Origin: Stenotrophomonas sp. 169
GTDB lineage: Bacteria > Pseudomonadota > Gammaproteobacteria > Xanthomonadales > Xanthomonadaceae
Assembly: GCF_014621775.1 (NCBI RefSeq)
Contig: NZ_CP061204.1
Coordinates: 3,926,501 to 3,990,500, forward strand
Direction: 5' to 3'
Length of the DNA: 64,000 nt
Part shown: positions 1 through 64,000 of the stretch, in pieces
Layout: each line of letters begins with the position of its first letter
How positions within the stretch are numbered: the first letter of the stretch is position 1
Notes under the pieces: generated by a model
Told to the model about the DNA's origin: nothing
Database searches by the model: none
Seen by the model: only the letters and a program-made list of their open reading frames with translations
Position numbers and translations under genes: made by a program

Positions 1-569
1 GCAACAGCAACAGCAACAGCAAGTGCAACAGCAACGGCAAGGGCAAGGGCCTGCAGGGCTGTGGGTTGGGCGGGGCAGGGTGGGTTGCCGGGGGACGGCA
101 AAAACTGCGTCCATGCGGGCCTTGTTTCGCGCCATCCATGGCGCTCAACACCCCCGCCAACCCACCCTGCCCCACCTTCGACAGGTCCATGGTGGCCATG
201 GGACCTGCGGGCATCGGTAGCGCCGACCCATGGTCGGCGAGCGCAGCGGGCCGTTAGCGGGAATATTCCGCCGACCATGGGTCGGCGCTACCGCAGGCGT
301 CGTTACCCGTCTGGTGGAGGGAGCCCCTGGGTCAGGGGCGGCCGCGAAGCGGCGGGGTGTGGGTGCTGGTGAGACGGGGCCCGCGGTTTGCGCGGCAAAG
401 CGTGGGAGCGGCAGCGCGAATGCGATGACGTGGACCCCGCCATGGATGGCACGAAACGAGGCACGCAGGACGCAGTTTTTGCCGTCCCCCGCGGCGCCCG
501 ACCGCCCGGCCCCAAGCTCGTAGCCTGCTGTCAGAGCCCTCCGCGAGGGGGTCTCACCCGTTCGCCGAC
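1..569. repeat. Repeat-rich intergenic region with nested inverted repeats
   Basis: No gene is credible here. Positions 1-50 are a degenerate GCAACA/GCAAGG tandem repeat. Positions 91-142 and 438-490 are inverted copies of about 52 bases (shared core GGGGGACGGCAAAAACTGCG and GCCATCCATGGCG), roughly 90% identical with a one-base indel. Between them lie a palindrome at 183-208 (CAGGTCC...GGACCTG type) and a pair of facing SMAG-like elements at 216-239 and 269-292 (GGTAGCGCCGACC arms). The outer repeat gives the region the look of a small non-autonomous element, but no target duplication or transposase is visible. Confidence 0.6.
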
Positions 570-1319
570 CTACTTGCTGGAAACGTACTTCTCGCGGCGG
601 ATCTGCGGGTTGCCCAGGCCGGCTGCCTTCAGCGCTTCGACACAGGTGTCCACCATGTCCGGGTTGCCGCACAGGTAGGCGATGTCCGTGGCCGCATCCG
701 GCGCGATGTCCGCCAACTGCTGCTGCACATAGCCATGGCGCACGTCCGGCCCCGGCGCAGCCGGCAACTCGCGCGACAGGCACGGCACATAGCGGAAGTT
801 CGGGTGCGCCGCCGCGAAGGCTTCGAAATCCTCGCTGTACAACAGCTCGGCCGGCGTCCGCGCACCCTGCAGCAGCACGACCTTCACCCCGCGCTCGGCC
901 ATCGCCGTTGCCAGCAGGGGCAGCATGGAGCGGTACGGGGTGACGCCGGTGCCGGTGGCGATCAGCAGGTAGCGGCCGTTATGGTCACCCGGCTGCAGGC
1001 AGAACCGGCCGTATGGGCCGCTGGCGCTGAGCTGGCCGCCGATATCCAGGCCCTCGAACAGGGCCGTGGCGGCCCCGCCAGGCACGAAACTCACCGCGAT
1101 ATCCACTGCCTCGCCCGGCCCGAGGGCATGGTCGTGGATCGTCGCCAGCGAGTAGCTGCGCTTGGTCTCGGTGCCATCGGCGTACTGGAAGTGGACCTGG
1201 ATGAACTGGCCCGGCTGGAAATCCAGCGGCTGGCCGTCATCGCGGAGGAACTGGTAATGGCCGACGGTGGGCGCCAGCATGCGGCGGTCGACCAGCTTGA
1301 TGGGAAATTGGACAGGCAC
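570..1319 (-). CDS. fpr: Ferredoxin--NADP reductase (Fpr family)
   Basis: Flavoprotein of 249 residues that passes electrons between NADPH and ferredoxin or flavodoxin in the cytoplasm, often tied to oxidative stress. Visible motifs: the FAD-binding RSYSLAT, the phosphate-binding stretch GPYGRF, the nicotinamide-binding GTGVTPYRSM and the late CGNPDMV segment; the protein ends EKYVSSK, close to the family's usual EKYx tail. Length matches E. coli Fpr (248). I chose the GTG at 1319 because upstream codons in the same frame read into low-quality sequence containing the divergent promoter. The gene is divergent from the ABC transporter at 1423. Function is well supported; physiological partner is inferred. 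Confidence 0.88.
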   Translation of the reverse strand: MPVQFPIKLVDRRMLAPTVGHYQFLRDDGQPLDFQPGQFIQVHFQYADGTETKRSYSLATIHDHALGPGEAVDIAVSFVPGGAATALFEGLDIGGQLSASGPYGRFCLQPGDHNGRYLLIATGTGVTPYRSMLPLLATAMAERGVKVVLLQGARTPAELLYSEDFEAFAAAHPNFRYVPCLSRELPAAPGPDVRHGYVQQQLADIAPDAATDIAYLCGNPDMVDTCVEALKAAGLGNPQIRREKYVSSK

Positions 1320-1422: not shown

Positions 1423-2370
1423 TTGGCTTCCCTGAACGACAACGCGCCCGCCCTGCGCGTGCGCGACCTGCGCAAGACCTACGACAACGGCACCGTGGCG
1501 CTGAAGGGCGTTTCCCTGGAAGTGGCCCCGGGCGACTTCTTCGCCCTGTTGGGCCCGAACGGCGCCGGCAAGTCGACCCTGATCGGCATCGTCAGCTCGC
1601 TGGTGAACCTCAGCGATGGCCAAGTGGAGGTGTTCGGCACCGACCTGGTGCGTGAGCGCAGTGCCTCGATGCGGCTGATCGGCCTGGTCCCGCAGGAGAT
1701 CAACTTCAACCTGTTCGAAAAGCCGTTCGACATCCTGGTGAACTACGCCGGCTTCTACGGCGTGGACCGGGCCGAAGCGGAAAAGCGCGCCGAGGAAGAG
1801 CTCAAGCGCGCCCATCTGTGGGGCAAGGCACAGGTGATGAGCCGCACCCTGTCCGGTGGCATGAAGCGCAGGCTGATGATCGCCCGCGCGATGATGACCC
1901 GTCCGCGCCTGCTGATCCTTGACGAGCCGACTGCCGGCGTCGACATCGAGATCCGCCGCGACATGTGGCGGGTGCTGCAGGAGATCAACGTCGCCGGCAC
2001 CACCATCATCCTCACCACCCACTATCTGGAAGAAGCCGAGCACCTGTGCCGCAACCTGGCCATCATCAACCACGGCCAGATCGTCACCCAGGGCCCGATG
2101 CGTGAGCTGCTGGCCAAGCTGGACGTGGAAGGCTTCCTGTTCGACATCGACGGCGTGCTGCCGGCGGAGCTGCCGCAGATCGAGGGTGCGACGCTGACCG
2201 CCACCGACGGCCACACGCTGGACATCGACATGCCACGGGCGATGGACCTCAACCGGGTATTCGCCGCACTCAATGCGTCGGGTATCCGCGTGCGGTCCAT
2301 GCGCACCAAGAGCAACCGCCTGGAGGAGCTGTTCGTACGGCTCACCGGCAACCAGGAGAACGTGGCATGA
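1423..2370 (+). CDS. yadG: ABC transporter ATP-binding protein (YadG type)
   Basis: ATPase subunit (about 315 residues) of an ABC-2 type exporter at the inner membrane. Walker A is GPNGAGKST, the signature is LSGGMKRRL, Walker B is LLILDEP and the switch histidine is in LTTHYLEEAEHL. The C-terminal 80 residues are the small regulatory domain seen in YadG/CcmA-like ATPases. Its stop overlaps the start of the permease (ATGA), so the two are translationally coupled. The TTG at 1423 gives the family length and follows a TATAAT box at 1365; a longer frame begins at 1267 but would include the promoter. The transported substrate is unknown. Confidence 0.87.
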   Translation: MASLNDNAPALRVRDLRKTYDNGTVALKGVSLEVAPGDFFALLGPNGAGKSTLIGIVSSLVNLSDGQVEVFGTDLVRERSASMRLIGLVPQEINFNLFEKPFDILVNYAGFYGVDRAEAEKRAEEELKRAHLWGKAQVMSRTLSGGMKRRLMIARAMMTRPRLLILDEPTAGVDIEIRRDMWRVLQEINVAGTTIILTTHYLEEAEHLCRNLAIINHGQIVTQGPMRELLAKLDVEGFLFDIDGVLPAELPQIEGATLTATDGHTLDIDMPRAMDLNRVFAALNASGIRVRSMRTKSNRLEELFVRLTGNQENVA

Positions 2371-57972: not shown

Positions 57973-58182
57973 ACCGGTAGCCCTCCAAATGCTTGTCAAC
58001 GTCTTCAGCGGTGGGCAGTTTTTACTTCGTCAGCCAGCCATCACTAACTATCCTTTCCTAATGAGCGTTGGGATTAGGATCATGCTTCAGGGGCTAGAAG
58101 ACCAATCTATCGGGGACTCTAAATCCTCGCTCCATTGAATGTGTTGGTCGCGCTCCCACTCCTTGGATTTCGGAGATTAATT

Positions 58183-58377
58183 TTAATTCTCGTGCCACTT
58201 TAGAATTATTATTAATCTTCCACATATCCATTGACATACCGGGAACCAAATGACGGCAAATACGACGCTTGCGCCTGAATATTTCGACAAGGCTGCCCAA
58301 GCGGTGAACAATCCCGCCATGAATATAAAAAGGAAGAATGTGTGAATGGCAATCTTCCGTTTCTTTTCCGTTTTCAT
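58183..58377 (-). CDS. Small two-span membrane protein, immunity-like (64 residues)
   Basis: Starts MKTEKKRKIAIHTFFLFIF, with spans IAIHTFFLFIFMAGLFTAW and SVVFAVIWFPVCQWICGRL. The ATG overlaps the TGA of an upstream toxin tail (ATGA), so the toxin-immunity reading is consistent. Confidence 0.55.
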   Translation of the reverse strand: MKTEKKRKIAIHTFFLFIFMAGLFTAWAALSKYSGASVVFAVIWFPVCQWICGRLIIILKWHEN

Positions 58378-58514
58378 TTTTTCCACGGCGTCTGCCTGAT
58401 CGTGGGCATACCTGCACCTGGTGCCGCGCACAAATTATCGTCCTTTTGAAGGAAGTCCGCTATCCCGTCTCTGTCGCAGTCAATTTCTGCACACCCCATC
58501 ACCTCGGCCTCCAA
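58374..58514 (-). pseudogene. Displaced RHS toxin tail fused to the truncated N-terminal RHS part
   Basis: Frame reading EVMGCAEIDCDRDGIADFLQ then KDDNLCAAPGAGMPTIRQTP and WKK stop. It overlaps the immunity-like gene start (ATGA). It lies directly after the point where the RHS N-terminal frame ends, in another frame, so a fusion followed by a frameshift is likely. Confidence 0.55.
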
Positions 58515-59122
58515 GAAAGTAGTAACAAGCGATAGCCACCGTCAGGGTTACGGACGATGTACGAAATGGGCTGCGCCTTATCCTCGAACCATTGGCCTGA
58601 AGCAGCGTCACGCAGGTAGCGCACGCGTCTTCCGTCGGTCCGCTGGGCCCAGAGGACATCTCCATTCTGAGATGGCACCAGCGACAAGTCGAAATTGCTC
58701 AGCCAGTGGTTACCAAAGATGCCGGTGGCGCTCCAGTGGTGATTGTATGTTCGCGCAAGAAACAGGCCCATCTCGCCTACTGACGAAAAATCCAGTTCGT
58801 GCTCTACCTTGTTGCCGGTGTAAAGCACGACCGGGTTGCCACCGGTCTCGCCGTCTCCGTCGCAGCCCTTGCGGTGATCGGTTTCCTGTGACTTCGCTGT
58901 CCGGGCCAAGCGCGCTGCCAGAGGCGCACCGATGCCCCGCTCCATGCGGTGACTCAACCCGGGCGTGTACGTTTCTCCCCAACGCTTGGCCCACACCTCG
59001 ACTCGAGGGTCCTCGGGCTTTTTTTCCTTGCTGGGGTCCAGTGCGGCGGCGCTGAAATGCCAGAAAAAAGGCGCCAGCATCAATCCACGATAGAAACCAG
59101 TCCGGTTCGGGGTACGTGCCAT
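58499..59122 (-). pseudogene. N-terminal fragment of an RHS protein
   Basis: Frame of 207 residues. A hydrophobic N-terminal stretch (FYRGLMLAPFFWHFSAAAL) is followed by the start of an RHS protein: GNPVVLYTGNKVEHELDFSS, FLARTYNHHWSATGIFGNHW and VRNPDGGYRLLL. It ends at LSWRPR stop, where an intact RHS would continue for over 1000 residues. The core between this and 56845 is missing and is replaced by small immunity-like genes. Confidence 0.75.
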
Positions 59123-59400
59123 GCGTCTCGTCCTTTCTCTTTTCCCAGAGCGTCTTGCTCAGGCGCAGGCCTTGACTAAAACCGACGGTCTCCCAGCGCA
59201 CTTCCAGAAATCGCGCATCTTCATGCAGCGTCCACCCATTCAGCTCCCAAGCCATAAATCGCCGAGCTGATCTGGATTCCCCTGCTCCCACCCCACGGGG
59301 TGTGCTTGGCAGCACTGAGCGAAGGCCATATCCTGCCCGCCGCACGTACCCTCTACGCCACGCGCTGATCTCCAGCGCGCGCCTGCCTCAAGGACACCGG
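59123..59400. other. Region upstream of the RHS fragment
   Basis: No assured gene. One minus-strand frame from the ATG at 59255 (MAWELNGWTLHEDARFLEVR) looks protein-like but has no independent stop before the RHS start; it could be the end of a neighbouring gene fused out of frame. Confidence 0.3.
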
Positions 59401-59961
59401 ATGTCATCAGCCCCTCCTACCCTCGGCGCTCCCCGCATGACGCCGCCGCGCACGGATTTCGTGCGTCCGCTGGCCCTGACCACGTTGCTGGTCTGCGCGG
59501 CGATGGTGCTGTGGTTTCTGTTCCAGGCGCTGCTGGCCTGGCCGCTGGGTGCCAGCCATCCGTGGCAGCTGCTGGTGGACGCCGCGACCGAACATGACTG
59601 GCCACGCAGCCTGCGCTGGATGCTGGCCCACCTCGTGTTGACCAGCCTGCTGATGGGCGCCGTGTGCGTGCCTTCGCTGGTCTCCAGCTGGGGCCTTTAC
59701 AAAGGCACCCGATGGGGACTGATCAGTTACGTCTGGCTGCTGGTCATCACCGGCATCGGCAATATCGGCGTGGCGTGGTGGCTTGACCGCGTGGCGGCCG
59801 CGCTGATCATGAAGCTGGGTGACGCGCCAGTTGTCGAAGAGCTGCAGGCCCAGCGCCTGCTGTTCACCTTCACCGTGCTCGGCAGCTGCGTGCTGTTCGC
59901 CGCGCTGCAGGGCTGGCTGGCGTGGCGATTGATGCGTCCGGATATCCGTTCGCGCTACTGA
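59401..59961 (+). CDS. Four-span inner membrane protein of unknown function
   Basis: Protein of 186 residues with membrane spans at about 22-45, 70-96, 105-125 and 160-180. No family motif recognised. ATG 59401 chosen (the longer frame to 59302 reads into non-coding sequence). It precedes the exported Cys-rich protein by 41 bases and may share its transcript. Confidence 0.6.
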   Translation: MSSAPPTLGAPRMTPPRTDFVRPLALTTLLVCAAMVLWFLFQALLAWPLGASHPWQLLVDAATEHDWPRSLRWMLAHLVLTSLLMGAVCVPSLVSSWGLYKGTRWGLISYVWLLVITGIGNIGVAWWLDRVAAALIMKLGDAPVVEELQAQRLLFTFTVLGSCVLFAALQGWLAWRLMRPDIRSRY

Positions 59962-60002
59962 AGCCGTTGCTCTGTCTTTTTCTGTTTTCCCTGGAGTCCC
60001 CC

Positions 60003-61286
60003 ATGTCACTGAAAACGCCTGTGCGCCTGCTGCGCGCGTTGCTCCCCTTTGCCCTGCTGGCCGCCACGGGCAGCCTCGCTGCGCAGGACTGCGCGGTGTA
60101 TGACGACGCCACCTGCGGTAACCAGCTGTACACCGCCGAAGCACCGCAACTGCAGCGCTGGTGCGAGCAGGGCACGATGGCCGCGTGCAGCGGGCTGCTG
60201 CGCGAGTGGACCAGTGAGGCGCGCAGTGCCGACACGCGCCCGCAGAATGATGACCCGGTGCTGCAGGAACCCGCTGTGTGCAAGGAAGCGGATCCTGCCT
60301 TCGATGAGCAGGCGTGCGAGGAGGCAGCCAAGGCGGCCCTGTCCAAGGCGATGGGGATGGCCCTCGTCGGTATCTTCGACCAGCGGCAGATCGTACTGCC
60401 GGCTGCACGCCGGCAGACACTGCAGCAGCTTTGCCTGGCACACCCGGAAGGGGAGTTCTGCCGCGAGGTCGCGCAGGCGCAGTGGACGGCCGGCAGCTAC
60501 GACACGGCGCTGGCCGCGCTGAAGGCCGGCTGCGCGGGTGGCGATGAAAGCGCCTGTGAACTGCACGCACCGCTGCAGTCACTGGGCACCGCGCCGCGGC
60601 CGCTGCCTGCCACTGCGGTCCCCTGCGGCGAGTACAGCAGCGAAGGCGGCATGCTGGATACGCTGGAGTTCGGCGATGGCGGGCTGGCGGGGTTCGGCCT
60701 CGGTGACCATGCCCGGGCACGGTTGGAAGACGGCGCGATCCGGATCCGCCACGACAAGGGCGGCGACTTCGTGTTCAAGGCGTTGGCCGGTGGGCATCTG
60801 GTCGGCATGGACGATTGGACGCAGATGCGGGTCTACCGCCGCGTCGGCGGTGCTGCGCAGTGCAGCCCGGCCGTGGTGTTCAAGGCCGTGCCGCTGCCGC
60901 AGGATTGCCCTGGTGCGACCGCTGAGGGCGCGGCGGAGGCGTGCTGCGCAGCGGGGCGGCTGCAGGGCTGCAACGTGCTGGGGAACCAGCTGGCGCTGGA
61001 CGAAAAGTGGCCGCAGGCCGCCACGCACTACCAGACGGTATGCCGTGCCGGTGTGCGCGAAGGCTGCGAGAACCTGGTCAGCGCGCAGGACAGCAGTGCC
61101 GAGGTGGACGCGCGTGCAGCCCTGGAGCACCTGTGCAAGGCCGATGCCAGCGGCACGGCCGTGGCCTGCGACGTCCTGGCCACGACCAACTGGGACATGA
61201 TCGCGATGGGCCGGATGCTGCAGGAAGCAGCCGACGACGTGGCCGAACCTGAGGCGCCTGCGCGCACTCGCAACCATAAGCGGTAA
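60003..61286 (+). CDS. Exported cysteine-rich protein of unknown function
   Basis: Protein of 427 residues with a signal peptide (about 1-26, ending SLAAQD). It has more than 20 cysteines, many in C-x(n)-C pairs such as RWCEQGTMAACSGLL, LKAGCAGGDESACELH and AEACCAAGRLQGCNVLG. These look like helical Sel1/SLR-type repeats stabilised by disulfides in the periplasm, with a beta-rich domain (residues about 215-300) between them. Function unknown. SMAG-like repeats follow. Confidence 0.65.
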   Translation: MSLKTPVRLLRALLPFALLAATGSLAAQDCAVYDDATCGNQLYTAEAPQLQRWCEQGTMAACSGLLREWTSEARSADTRPQNDDPVLQEPAVCKEADPAFDEQACEEAAKAALSKAMGMALVGIFDQRQIVLPAARRQTLQQLCLAHPEGEFCREVAQAQWTAGSYDTALAALKAGCAGGDESACELHAPLQSLGTAPRPLPATAVPCGEYSSEGGMLDTLEFGDGGLAGFGLGDHARARLEDGAIRIRHDKGGDFVFKALAGGHLVGMDDWTQMRVYRRVGGAAQCSPAVVFKAVPLPQDCPGATAEGAAEACCAAGRLQGCNVLGNQLALDEKWPQAATHYQTVCRAGVREGCENLVSAQDSSAEVDARAALEHLCKADASGTAVACDVLATTNWDMIAMGRMLQEAADDVAEPEAPARTRNHKR

Positions 61287-61308
61287 GCCGCCTGCGGTGA
61301 TGCAGGTC

Positions 61309-61485
61309 GGTAGTGCCGGGCCACGCTCGGCGAGCGCGCAGCGCGGCCTGCGTCGGGCACCTCGGTGCCTGAGCCACTCCGCCGAGCGCGGCTCGGCGCT
61401 ACCGTCAGGATGCGGGCCTGCGTCGGGCACCTCGGTGCCTGAGCCACTCCGCCGAGCGCGGCTCGGCGCTACCGTCAGGATGCCG
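61309..61485. repeat. SMAG-like repeat followed by two tandem 70-base units
   Basis: A single element at 61309-61334 (GGTAGTGCCGGGCC) precedes two direct copies of a 70-base unit, 61346-61415 and 61416-61485, that differ at one base. Each unit holds a GGCACC/GGTGCC hairpin and the palindrome GCCGAGCGCGGCTCGGC. A few bases of a third unit follow. Confidence 0.85.
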
Positions 61486-61524
61486 GCCTGCAGCGGGTGA
61501 CGGGCACCGGCTAAACTGCACGGC

Positions 61525-62421
61525 ATGAACGAATTCGACCGTGTACGCGCCTACCTCACCGACCTGCAGGACCGCATCTGCGCCGCCATCGAGGGCGCCG
61601 ACGGCCAGGCTCGATTCCAGGAAGACCAGTGGCAGCGCGCCGAGGGGGGCGGTGGCCGCACCCGTATCCTGCGCGATGGCGCGGTGTTCGAGCAGGCCGG
61701 CATCGGCTTTTCCGACGTGGCCGGCAGCCGCCTGCCGCCTTCCGCATCGGCCAACCGTCCGGAGCTGGCGGGCGCCACCTGGCGGGCCACTGGCGTGTCG
61801 CTGGTGTTCCATCCGCTCAACGCCATGGTGCCGACCACCCACGCCAACGTGCGCTTCTTCCAGGCGCAGCGCGATGGTGAGACGGTAGCCAGCTGGTTCG
61901 GCGGCGGCTTCGACCTGACGCCGTTCTACCCCTTCGACGAAGACGTGCAGCACTGGCACGGCACCGCCCGCGACCTGTGCGCGCCCTTCGGGCCGGAGCG
62001 GTATCCCGCCCACAAGCGCTGGTGCGATGAATACTTCTTCCTGCGCCACCGCAACGAGACGCGTGGCGTCGGCGGGCTGTTCTTCGATGACCTGCACGGC
62101 GACTTCGAGCGGGATTTCGATTACCTGCGTGCGGTCGGTGATGGCTTCCTCGATGCCTACCTGCCGATCGTGCAGCGCCGCAAGGACACCGTGCATGGCG
62201 AGCGCGAGCGCGAGTTCCAGCTGTACCGCCGGGGCCGCTACGTGGAGTTCAACCTGGTCTACGACCGCGGCACGTTGTTCGGGCTGCAGAGCGGTGGCCG
62301 CAGCGAAAGCATCCTGATGAGCCTGCCGCCGCGCGTACGCTGGGAGTACGGGTTCGAGCCGGAGGCCGGCAGTGCCGAGGCGCGGCTCGCGGATTACCTG
62401 GTGCCGCGCGACTGGGTGTGA
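61525..62421 (+). CDS. hemF: Oxygen-dependent coproporphyrinogen III oxidase
   Basis: Haem synthesis enzyme of 298 residues that decarboxylates coproporphyrinogen III in the cytoplasm. Motifs: [48 protein letters not shown] and [19 protein letters not shown]. Length and order match E. coli HemF (299). The 3' end is followed by a repeat-rich region. Confidence 0.93.
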
Positions 62422-62489
62422 GGCAGGGGGCGGTGGCGCGGCTGTAATGGGTGATGGCGGGGGGACGACAGCCGGAGACAGTCGAAGCC

Positions 62490-62533
62490 AGCCGACTGAA
62501 GTCGGCTCTACCGGTCGGCTCTACCGGTCGGCG
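62490..62533. repeat. Second palindromic repeat family with short tandem repeats
   Basis: A palindrome AGCCGACT-GA-AGTCGGCT (62490-62507) is followed by two exact copies of TCGGCTCTACCGG (62502-62514 and 62515-62527) and a partial third. It is unrelated in sequence to the SMAG-like elements. Confidence 0.7.
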
Positions 62534-62563
62534 CCATCAGTCGGCGCTGCGTACCGGGGCTGG

Positions 62564-62603
62564 AAATAAAAAGCCCCGCTGACCAGGGGGAGGTCAACGG
62601 GGC
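62564..62603 (-). terminator. Intrinsic terminator of polA and/or the adjacent sRNA
   Basis: On the minus strand a 12-bp stem (GCCCCGTTGACC / GGTCAGCGGGGC, one U-G pair, 7-base loop) is followed by TTTTTATTT. It is the best intrinsic terminator in the window and ends any transcript coming from polA or from the structured region between. Confidence 0.85.
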
Positions 62604-62690
62604 CGGGGAACGGGTGCTTGGGGAGGAGCCCCCGTTCCAAGATCTTCTCCAGGGGATGGGAGAGATCCACAACAGGCGTTGCGCCTGTTG
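62564..62690 (-). ncRNA. Probable small RNA downstream of polA
   Basis: About 125 bases. A 5' hairpin with a 9-bp perfect stem (CAACAGGCG/CGCCTGTTG, loop CAA, 62670-62690), a middle hairpin with stem GGAACGGG/CCCGTTCC (62607-62614 with 62631-62638) whose loop contains CUCCUCCCC, and a strong terminator. A -10 TATAGC (62694-62699) lies at the right distance, with a weak -35 TTCATC 17 bases before it. The place next to polA is where Spot 42 sits in enterobacteria and ErsA in Pseudomonas. The C-rich loop could pair with ribosome sites. Alternatively it is only the polA 3' UTR. Confidence 0.6.
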
Positions 62691-62809
62691 ATGGCTATAA
62701 AAGCACTACGAACATTGATGAATCGTGAAGGCGGCCCATTTAGCCTTTCCTGCCCCGTGCAATATTCATCGTTTAGTCAGACTGTCGCGGCAGCAGACGT
62801 ATTCAGGCT

Positions 62810-64000
62810 TCAATGCGCCTCGTCCCAGTTGAGTCCATGGCCCGTGTCGACCACCAGCGGAACCCGCAACTGAGCTGCCTGCGAAATGTGTTTGACGACC
62901 TCGGTACGCAGCTCGTCGATGTAGCCGGCCTCGCATTCGAAGACGAGTTCATCGTGCACCTGCAGGATCATCTTCGCCGGCGCGGCCGACTCGCGAAGCC
63001 AGGTATCCACCTTCACCATCGCCTTTTTGATGATGTCCGCCGCCGTGCCCTGCATCGGCGCATTGATCGCGGCACGCTCCGCGCCTGCCCGCAGCCCTTG
63101 GTTGCGTGCGTTGATGTCGTTCAGGTACAGGCGTCGGCCGAACAGCGTTTCCACGTAGCCCTGCTCACGCGCCTGTTGCCGCATCCTCTCCATGAAATCG
63201 CGCACGCCGGGGTAGCGGCTGAAGTACAGCGCCACGTAGTCCTGCGCCTGCCCGCGGTCGATGCCCAGGTTGCGCGCCAATCCGAAGGCGCTCATGCCGT
63301 ACATCAGCCCGAAGTTGATCGCCTTCGCGGCACGTCGCTCGTTGCTGGTGACCTCCTCCAGGGAACGACCGAACACTTCTGCCGCGGTGGCGCGGTGCAC
63401 GTCCGCGCCCTGTTCGAATGCCCCCACCAGACCGGGGTCGCCAGACAGGTGCGCCATGATCCGCAGTTCGATCTGCGAGTAGTCGGCCGCCAACAACAGC
63501 TTGCCTTCCGGCGCGATGAACGCGCGGCGGATACGGCGGCCGTCTTCCGTTCGGATCGGGATGTTCTGCAGGTTCGGGTCGGATGACGACAGGCGGCCCG
63601 TGGCGGCGCCTGACTGGTGATAGCTGGTGTGTACGCGGCCGGTATCGGCGTTGATCATTTCCGGCAGCTTGTCGGTGTAGGTGCTGCGCAGCTTGGCCAG
63701 CCCGCGGTACTCCAGGATCACCCGCGGCAGTTCATGCTGCTCGGCGATCGCTTCCAGTGCCTCTTCGTTGGTGCTCGGCTGGCCCTTGGGCGTCTTCACC
63801 AGCGCAGGCAGCTTCAGCTCGTCGAACAACACCGCCTGCAGCTGCTTGGGCGAATCCAGGTTGAAGCTGCGGCCGGCCAGCTCGGTGGCCTTCTGCTGGG
63901 CGGCCAGCATGCGCGTGGACAGGTCCTGGCTCTGTCGCCGCAGCTCCGCCATGTCCACTTGCACGCCATGGGCCTCGATGCGGGTCAGCACCGGTACCAG
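62810..64000 (-). CDS. polA: DNA polymerase I, C-terminal part (runs off the window)
   Basis: Polymerase domain of DNA polymerase I; the gene continues beyond 64000. Visible motifs: motif [14 protein letters not shown], motif [21 protein letters not shown], motif [10 protein letters not shown]. The thumb [18 protein letters not shown] is also present. About 396 codons are in the window. It fills gaps and removes RNA primers. The stop at 62810 is followed by the probable sRNA region and a terminator. Confidence 0.95.

Follow-up and report, generated by a model that had tools for sequence, protein, structure and literature searches.

sX13 downstream of polA in Stenotrophomonas sp. 169, its candidate 5' hairpin and its likely distant relative ErsA

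Background

The closest described system is sX13, a small RNA (sRNA) reported from Xanthomonas, Xylella, Stenotrophomonas maltophilia and Pseudoxanthomonas (Schmidtke et al. 2013, PMC3771888). Its gene always follows polA, and the authors liken this place to those of Spot 42 and the alpha-r7 family. The published RNA is 115 nt long. In Xanthomonas it is abundant, constitutive and Hfq-independent, with 63 regulated genes, and its C-rich loops act on mRNAs with G-rich motifs near their start codons. GGGG motifs are over-represented close to the start codons of the mRNAs that sX13 represses, and reporter fusions are repressed only with both the C-rich loops and the G-rich motifs in place; in Xanthomonas hfq the G-motif is reported nine nucleotides downstream of AUG. 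Masking of a translation enhancer or ribosome-binding site by loop-motif pairing is the authors' proposal. Direct pairing is not proven, since in Xanthomonas mutated targets did not come back under control when sX13 carried compensatory mutations, which the authors account for by G-motifs doubling as translation enhancers. A question that the 2013 paper leaves open is if other bacteria, too, have sRNAs of this sort at their polA locus, and if these act alike.

ErsA of Pseudomonas is described as a sigma22-dependent RNA of 132 nt, located between polA and engB. Its SL1 is followed by domain II, which is rich in U, unstructured and comprises, among others, nt 31-54; on anr ErsA acts with Hfq required.

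Identity and structure of the locus

In the window (the whole 64,000-nucleotide stretch of the Stenotrophomonas sp. 169 genome that was analysed), the locus between polA and hemF is, judged by its sequence, the known sRNA sX13 and not a new RNA. The Rfam model RF02232 (sX13; 115 positions) matches the minus strand at 62680-62567 with 120.9 bits (cmscan; E 9.5e-24, gathering score 50), and this is its single match in the whole window genome. A sequence-only reading had proposed a small RNA next to polA, and the window does encode an RNA of the kind described; what that reading overlooked is that the family already has a name.

The 3' part of polA (DNA polymerase I; Pfam DNA_pol_A), cut by the window edge, occupies 62813-64000 of the minus strand, with the stop codon at 62812-62810, and the convergent neighbour hemF (coproporphyrinogen III oxidase; Pfam Coprogen_oxidas) lies at 61525-62421 of the plus strand. 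The sRNA follows polA directly, on the same strand and 119 nt 3' of its stop, with no terminator-like site between the two. The predicted fold of 62564-62700 on the minus strand has an energy of -71.2 kcal/mol, versus -43.2 +/- 3.7 for 200 dinucleotide shuffles (z -7.6, no shuffle as low), and comprises four stem-loops with the terminator counted: H0 (CAACAGGCG-CAA-CGCCUGUUG, 62670-62690), H1 (62641-62667), H2 (62607-62638) and the intrinsic terminator hairpin H3 (62572-62604), after which comes the T-run TTTTATTT. The apical loops CAUCCCCU (H1, 62658-62651), CCUCCCCA (H2, 62626-62619) and UCCCCCU (H3, 62591-62585) are all predicted unpaired and carry the 4C, 4C and 5C motifs of sX13. The fold and the Pfam neighbours thus agree with the three hairpins and U-tract terminator that had been read from the minus strand of the polA-hemF gap. 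The C-rich sequence said to be exposed in the middle loop is also there, with CUCCUCCCC at 62628-62620 and with CCUCCCCA as the 8-nt H2 loop at an unpaired probability of 1.0.

Covariance search against relatives, which the same reading had named as its check, gave an RF02232 match at E<=1e-3 for 146 of the 299 genomes from this order, 84 of which exceed the cut-off, and for none of 14 control genomes, and the H0 stem covaries, as described below. In the search that gave the single match in the window genome, 1 of 14 control genomes was matched as well, below the cut-off. Among 70 sX13-type loci, polA was inside the fetched stretch in 61; the other nine are L036, L037, L058 and L059, over the sX13 cut-off, and L062, L063, L065, L066 and L069, under it. 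The closest of the named polA loci belongs to a Stenotrophomonas MAG (88% identity), records very near the window genome being possibly absent from that set.

The 5' hairpin and the transcript start

The window locus agrees with sX13 in sequence, in the three C-rich stem-loops, in its place after polA and in the host family, and differs from RF02232 in being extended by a covarying 5' hairpin, which the family model halves: the first base of the model (62680) falls in the H0 loop, at AACGCC, and the upstream arm of H0 lies outside. With this hairpin, the sRNA gene spans 62567-62693 of the minus strand in our own models R1 (145.2 bits) and R2 (121.4 bits), scores that are high by construction, because the window sequence is among the training sequences of both.

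Covariation of H0 was assessed separately for the two sides of the family. The first alignments were built without L062, L064, L065, L066 and L069 (poor or doubtful matches), the following ones also without L050, L063 and L070 (other register or family), and identical rows were merged. In 39 Xanthomonadaceae-side sequences (MAFFT), 98.4% of 312 cells are paired and 6 of the 8 pairs changed on both sides. In 13 sister-family sequences, in which the register is shifted by one, the corresponding values are 98.7% of 78 cells and 3 of 6 pairs. Slid-register controls reach at most 55% in either set. The shuffle controls ignore relatedness, but from one family to the other the GCAA core stays almost the same while the arms around it differ; in the 13-sequence set one of five measures, further pair types (5), is not above the shuffles, of which 499 of 500 attain it. 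RNAalifold on MAFFT alignment A1 was judged to misplace H1/H2, and the structure used for counting pairs was therefore chosen by hand. The main H2 stem gives 75.1% paired, a poor count put down to an alignment shift there, and H1 was left out of the counting.

According to the non-Watson-Crick cells, which comprise 27 G-U, 2 A-C and 4 others of 256 on the Xanthomonadaceae side and 2 G-U, no A-C and 1 other of 72 in the sister family, H0 appears to be an RNA stem on the minus strand, because the mismatched cells are G-U rather than A-C. It could instead be a dyad in the DNA that serves as an operator at the start site, with sX13 truly beginning at 62680. The Rfam model does start at this base, its 115 positions equal the published length, and the paper reports that the 5' region is single-stranded in vitro in the 115-nt RNA, which is without the upstream arm. 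A palindrome, however, would not be expected to show the G-U excess, which disfavours the operator; moreover, the arms covary while the central CAA stays, and the TATA box and the TC element of the sister family stand at -19 and -21 relative to 62680, too far for either promoter type and right for a start at H0. We therefore regard the dyad as quite improbable.

The same geometry favours a start at H0 over 62680: a 5' end near 62688 would fit the covarying hairpin and the promoter spacing better than the Rfam start does. In the proposed scheme the primary transcript would start at about 62688-62690 from a TATA-box promoter and carry H0 at its 5' end, and the 115-nt form would arise by cleavage in the H0 loop, unless its mapped end is not the true start. 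The plant phenotype was the same when the 115-nt RNA lacked its first 14 nt (PMC3771888), and H0 may be unimportant for that function of sX13; our guess at its role is a protected 5' end. The omission of H0 from the sX13 model goes beyond the published descriptions found.

Promoter

A -10-like box, TTATAG at 62700-62695 of the minus strand, stands 4 bases 5' of H0, as the sequence-only reading had stated; a scan of 62300-63000 for sigma70 consensus promoters returned none. TATA occupies a fixed place in 40 of 50 Xanthomonadaceae-side loci. As for the sister family, 46 of 50 loci have AAC-N17..19-TC, a sigmaE-type spacing (shuffles: mean 1.0, maximum 4), and the upstream DNA resembles, at a fixed place, an ECF/sigmaE promoter of about (G/C)AACTT-N16-TCTAA. 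This anatomy matches the named loci of Rhodanobacter (L337), Luteibacter (L334) and Rudaea (L332). On the Xanthomonadaceae side 29 of 50 loci keep the AAC-N17..19-TC spacing, at -43/-42. Of the same-genus loci examined, 9 of 18 have it. It is absent from the window genome (L001) and from seven loci of genus g5 (L002-L008), where TATA is present, and the named Xanthomonas locus L324 reads as the window genome does (TATA).

The rpoE gene regulates itself through a site of this GAAC..TC type. Of 17 genomes whose rpoE loci were read by eye, 14 have GAAC/GAAAC..TC sites at a distance of 65-101 nt from the matched rpoE stretch, on its upstream side; the site of the window genome (L131) is GAACTTTTTCCGGGATTGGCAGTCTCAT, and in L134, L137 and L140 the matches listed lie farther off and are doubtful. 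The ancestral sigmaE/ECF-type promoter of a polA-linked sRNA would, according to our explanation, have decayed in the window genome.

The promoter data also bear on the plainest alternative, that the stretch is merely the 3' UTR and terminator of polA, processed and not separately transcribed. The distance of 119 nt to the polA stop, the shared strand and the lack of a terminator-like site between them all agree with it. Against this, TATA or the sigmaE-type spacing stands at a fixed distance ahead of H0, two genomes have 4 or 5 tandem copies, each with a promoter-like site (by eye, some degenerate), and the copy in L037 (1988-2110), with no polA in its 4.1 kb and with much of its upstream DNA different, still has GAACCA and TGGTCATAT. 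A mere 3' UTR is thus very improbable, and a separately transcribed sX13 gene is preferred.

Xanthomonadaceae loci share a conserved block, CTTCACGAACCATCAATG, some 33-50 nt 5' of the Rfam start (about 62730-62713 of the minus strand in the window), and it exceeds a -35 element in length; a further conserved ATGAAT lies about 88 nt upstream in these loci. Second RNA copies without polA in the stretch are seen in L037 and also in L066 and L069 (Lysobacterales); what L037 retains of the promoter is chiefly its -35/-10-like elements.

Mode of action and the hfq motif

With its three C-rich loops present, the RNA of this genome very probably acts, by orthology, in the known way of sX13, in which C-rich loops are directed at G-rich motifs close to start codons. 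One conserved target of this orthologous mechanism would be hfq: its GGGG is kept in all 8 genomes compared, the window genome included, at 0-based offset 8 from AUG, reading AAGGGGCAA, approximately where sX13 control was shown in Xanthomonas. The motif may stem partly from coding constraint on a conserved Lys-Gly; in two neighbouring genes, 10 of the 60 glycines are encoded by GGG. The suggestion that the RNA could be a global regulator proved apt in kind, given that sX13 of Xanthomonas is a trans-acting sRNA with the 63 regulated genes mentioned above.

Relatives beyond the order

Outside the order the family was followed with R1 and R2. R1, which includes H0, has matches in 15 of 369 genomes of the class. 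Ten of these genomes are from outside the order; their best matches are downstream of polA in 8 cases and beside engB in a ninth (L123), and a GAAC..TC element precedes 7 of the 8 polA-linked ones (by eye). For the class survey, 105 of 342 polA-bearing genomes were taken by polA-similarity rank, with several R1-matched ones skipped; three stretches were too short, so that 102 were counted, and 100 of these were given to R1. A stricter promoter motif occurs in 36 of these 102 further polA downstream regions, compared with 7 on the opposite strand and a Markov expectation of 10.9 (maximum 18), and of the 100 loci given to R1, 31 have a match at E<0.01 on the polA strand and 2 on the opposite one (strand sense judged by eye).

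The training set of R2 consists of 76 matches in 73 chosen loci. It includes two weak second matches (L162, L188) and leaves out the R1-matched L163, L166, L173, L180, L183, L247 and L249; by handle, f171, to which G459, G713 and G927 belong, is not among the families represented. On 80 named polA loci (372 kb) R2 has 56 matches at E<0.1, every one of them downstream of polA and in its sense, and 55 at E<0.01, where 25 loci remain without a match; L363 is the same contig as the training locus L060, so the Lysobacterales matches in this set are not independent. AAC-N17..19-TC precedes 51 of 55 R2 matches versus 1-6 of 54-55 at nine control offsets, the spacing being due to chance in at least L324, L326 and L328. 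No R2 match was found in 71 kb of rpoE loci, and within the window the only match beyond sX13 is a weak one (14.8 bits, E 0.27). When the phylum was searched under stricter filters, 21 of 398 genomes had an R2 match; ten belong to the order, six to the rest of the class, and five lie outside the class. The matches outside the class (L304-L307, L310) were set aside as evidence, having no polA or engB in the fetched stretch.

Comparison with ErsA and other families

The position after polA had been likened to that of both ErsA and Spot 42, and justly, as ErsA and the Spot 42 gene of Edwardsiella both follow polA. The accompanying remark that the sequence is not obviously either RNA is right for close similarity, neither model matching 58000-64000 up to E 10. 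For Spot 42 (RF00021, cut-off 80 bits) this result disposes of a Spot 42-like reading; R2 has no match at the Edwardsiella Spot 42 locus (L382), and beyond the shared place the comparative models show no sign of kinship. As for ErsA (RF01719, ErsA/Pseudomon-1), the genome likewise has no match at E<=1e-3, leaving the 50-bit cut-off unreached, and the AAC-N17..19-TC spacing expected of its sigma22 (sigmaE-type) promoter is absent.

ErsA loci are nevertheless recognised by a model trained without their family. Of 203 genomes of the class, 8 have a match to RF01719 itself and one of these exceeds the cut-off; 7 of the matches lie after polA and the eighth beside engB. At the ErsA locus of G459, R2 scores 41.4 bits (E 5.3e-6), and it matches 24 of 26 loci titled Pseudomonas, Halopseudomonas or Pseudomonadaceae, although ErsA-type loci reach only 30-46 bits, with rough E-values. 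In an Rfam run on 20 of the 80 named loci, ErsA was called in 6 of 7 such Pseudomonas-type loci and in one titled Pantoea; every call overlaps an R2 match, and the seventh locus, L347, has neither. In the phylum search R2 matched two f171 genomes between polA and engB (L308, L309) and missed three others, the ErsA genome G459, G705 and G709, under the stricter filters.

R2 aligns H0 with ErsA SL1 and H3 with the ErsA terminator; the middle differs. Thus, ErsA and sX13 share the place after polA, a first stem-loop aligned with H0, SL2 near H2 and a C-rich terminator loop, and ErsA loci share with the proposed family the sigmaE-type promoter spacing upstream. They differ in that ErsA has the unstructured domain II in place of H1 and needs Hfq on anr (published descriptions), and in that the window promoter is without the AAC element. 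The R2 match in L256 is 130 nt long, near the 132 nt of ErsA, compared with 116 positions of the RF01719 model, and by analogy sX13 should start with its hairpin as well. On the strength of the models, ErsA is likely a distant relative of sX13. The window locus, which is not ErsA by the cut-off and has no promoter of the ErsA type, probably works like sX13 and shares ancestry with ErsA. No paper dealing with two of sX13, ErsA, Pseudomon-1 and anti-hemB was found in a search whose coverage excludes most subscription papers, and a wider sX13-ErsA family goes beyond the published descriptions found.

Among the remaining Rfam families, sub-threshold matches on 20 loci from the search outside the order reach 47.7 bits for anti-hemB, 48.3 for sX13, 38.6 for ar14 and 37.1 for ErsA, and none of these four belongs to an Rfam clan. 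The anti-hemB model (RF02837) matches 97 of 203 class genomes at E<=1e-3, of which 10 exceed its cut-off of 49.5, together with 3 of 14 control genomes below it. Of its matches, 50 rows with E up to about 1.2e-5 and a listed polA place were compared; 28 of them lie at most 1.5 kb downstream of polA in sense orientation, and of the other 22, 12 were looked at, with engB in the stretch of 8. In many gammaproteobacterial families the model picks up RNAs linked to polA or engB, mostly with scores under its cut-off, and its strongest locus (L264) has neither polA nor engB within 1.5 kb. Its sole listed match in the window genome, G000:C1:460181-460257, is outside the window (26.2 bits, E 9.1e-4), and we do not claim the window locus as a member. 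The alphaproteobacterial models ar14 (RF02344) and Atu_C7 (RF02501) give weak full-length matches at the locus, with 32.1 and 29.2 bits, below their cut-offs of 58.8 and 45; ar14 also has C-rich loops.

These comparisons have to be weighed against convergence, that is, polA-linked RNAs of other families, ErsA included, being unrelated to sX13 and having arrived independently at C-rich hairpins and terminators. The contrasting domain II and Hfq requirement of ErsA, the low R2 scores at ErsA-type loci, the phylum result of 21 in 398 genomes with five genomes outside the class without polA or engB nearby, the missed f171 genomes (perhaps an effect of the stricter filters) and the anti-hemB matches in control genomes all agree with it. 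Chance resemblance, however, would hardly place all 56 R2 matches in 372 kb downstream of polA and in its sense, leave the rpoE loci empty and the window with sX13 alone below E 0.27, put the matches of a curated ErsA model after polA or beside engB in all 8 genomes, and set the sigmaE-type spacing before 51 of 55 matches. We consider convergence unlikely, though the most serious of the alternatives, and common descent is preferred.

Proposed history of the locus

According to the explanation that we favour with considerable confidence, the locus is an sX13 gene with an orthologous mechanism and a start at H0, and shares with ErsA an ancestor whose envelope-stress promoter has since decayed. 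The ancestral sRNA of the polA/engB locus would have had a 5' hairpin and C-rich hairpins and been switched on by an envelope-stress sigma factor; from this polA-linked, sigmaE/ECF-driven RNA both the sX13 gene and ErsA of Pseudomonas would descend. Xanthomonas and the window genome would have exchanged the sigmaE-type promoter for a housekeeping one, by which an envelope-stress regulator became constitutive. The window locus shows the H0 hairpin, C-rich loops, terminator and place after polA of the proposed family, and its genome is without the sigmaE-type promoter. The broader statement, that sX13 and ErsA form one ancient gammaproteobacterial polA/engB-locus family with an ancestral envelope-stress switch and a swapped promoter, and that the published sX13 is without its true 5' hairpin, is held with less assurance, as probable.

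If the wider reading is true, two separately studied virulence-linked sRNAs, sX13 and ErsA, are one family with one ancestral switch, the 2013 question on polA-locus sRNAs is answered, and results become transferable between the two. It would also provide a testable 5' end for sX13 and predict an envelope-stress sRNA in several little-studied gammaproteobacterial groups. The gene itself being already known, the lasting value would lie in the missed H0 hairpin and the proposed sX13-ErsA family.

Further observations

Tandem arrays of sX13/anti-hemB-like RNAs follow polA in L116 (four copies, 1501-2255, minus strand) and L247 (five copies, 123-863, plus strand), with a sigmaE-type promoter-like site before each copy, some of them degenerate (by eye). 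In L277, L280 and L289 the RNA lies beside engB, with no polA in the stretch and a di-haem cytochrome-like frame (CxxCH, by eye) nearby. In the window, GTAGAGCCGAC repeats stand right behind the terminator (62501-62524, minus strand) and also at 217-291; with at most one mismatch there are 4 matches, compared with a chance mean of 0.85 and 2 of 100 shuffles reaching this number. We take these repeats to resemble the GTAG-type REP elements of Stenotrophomonas.
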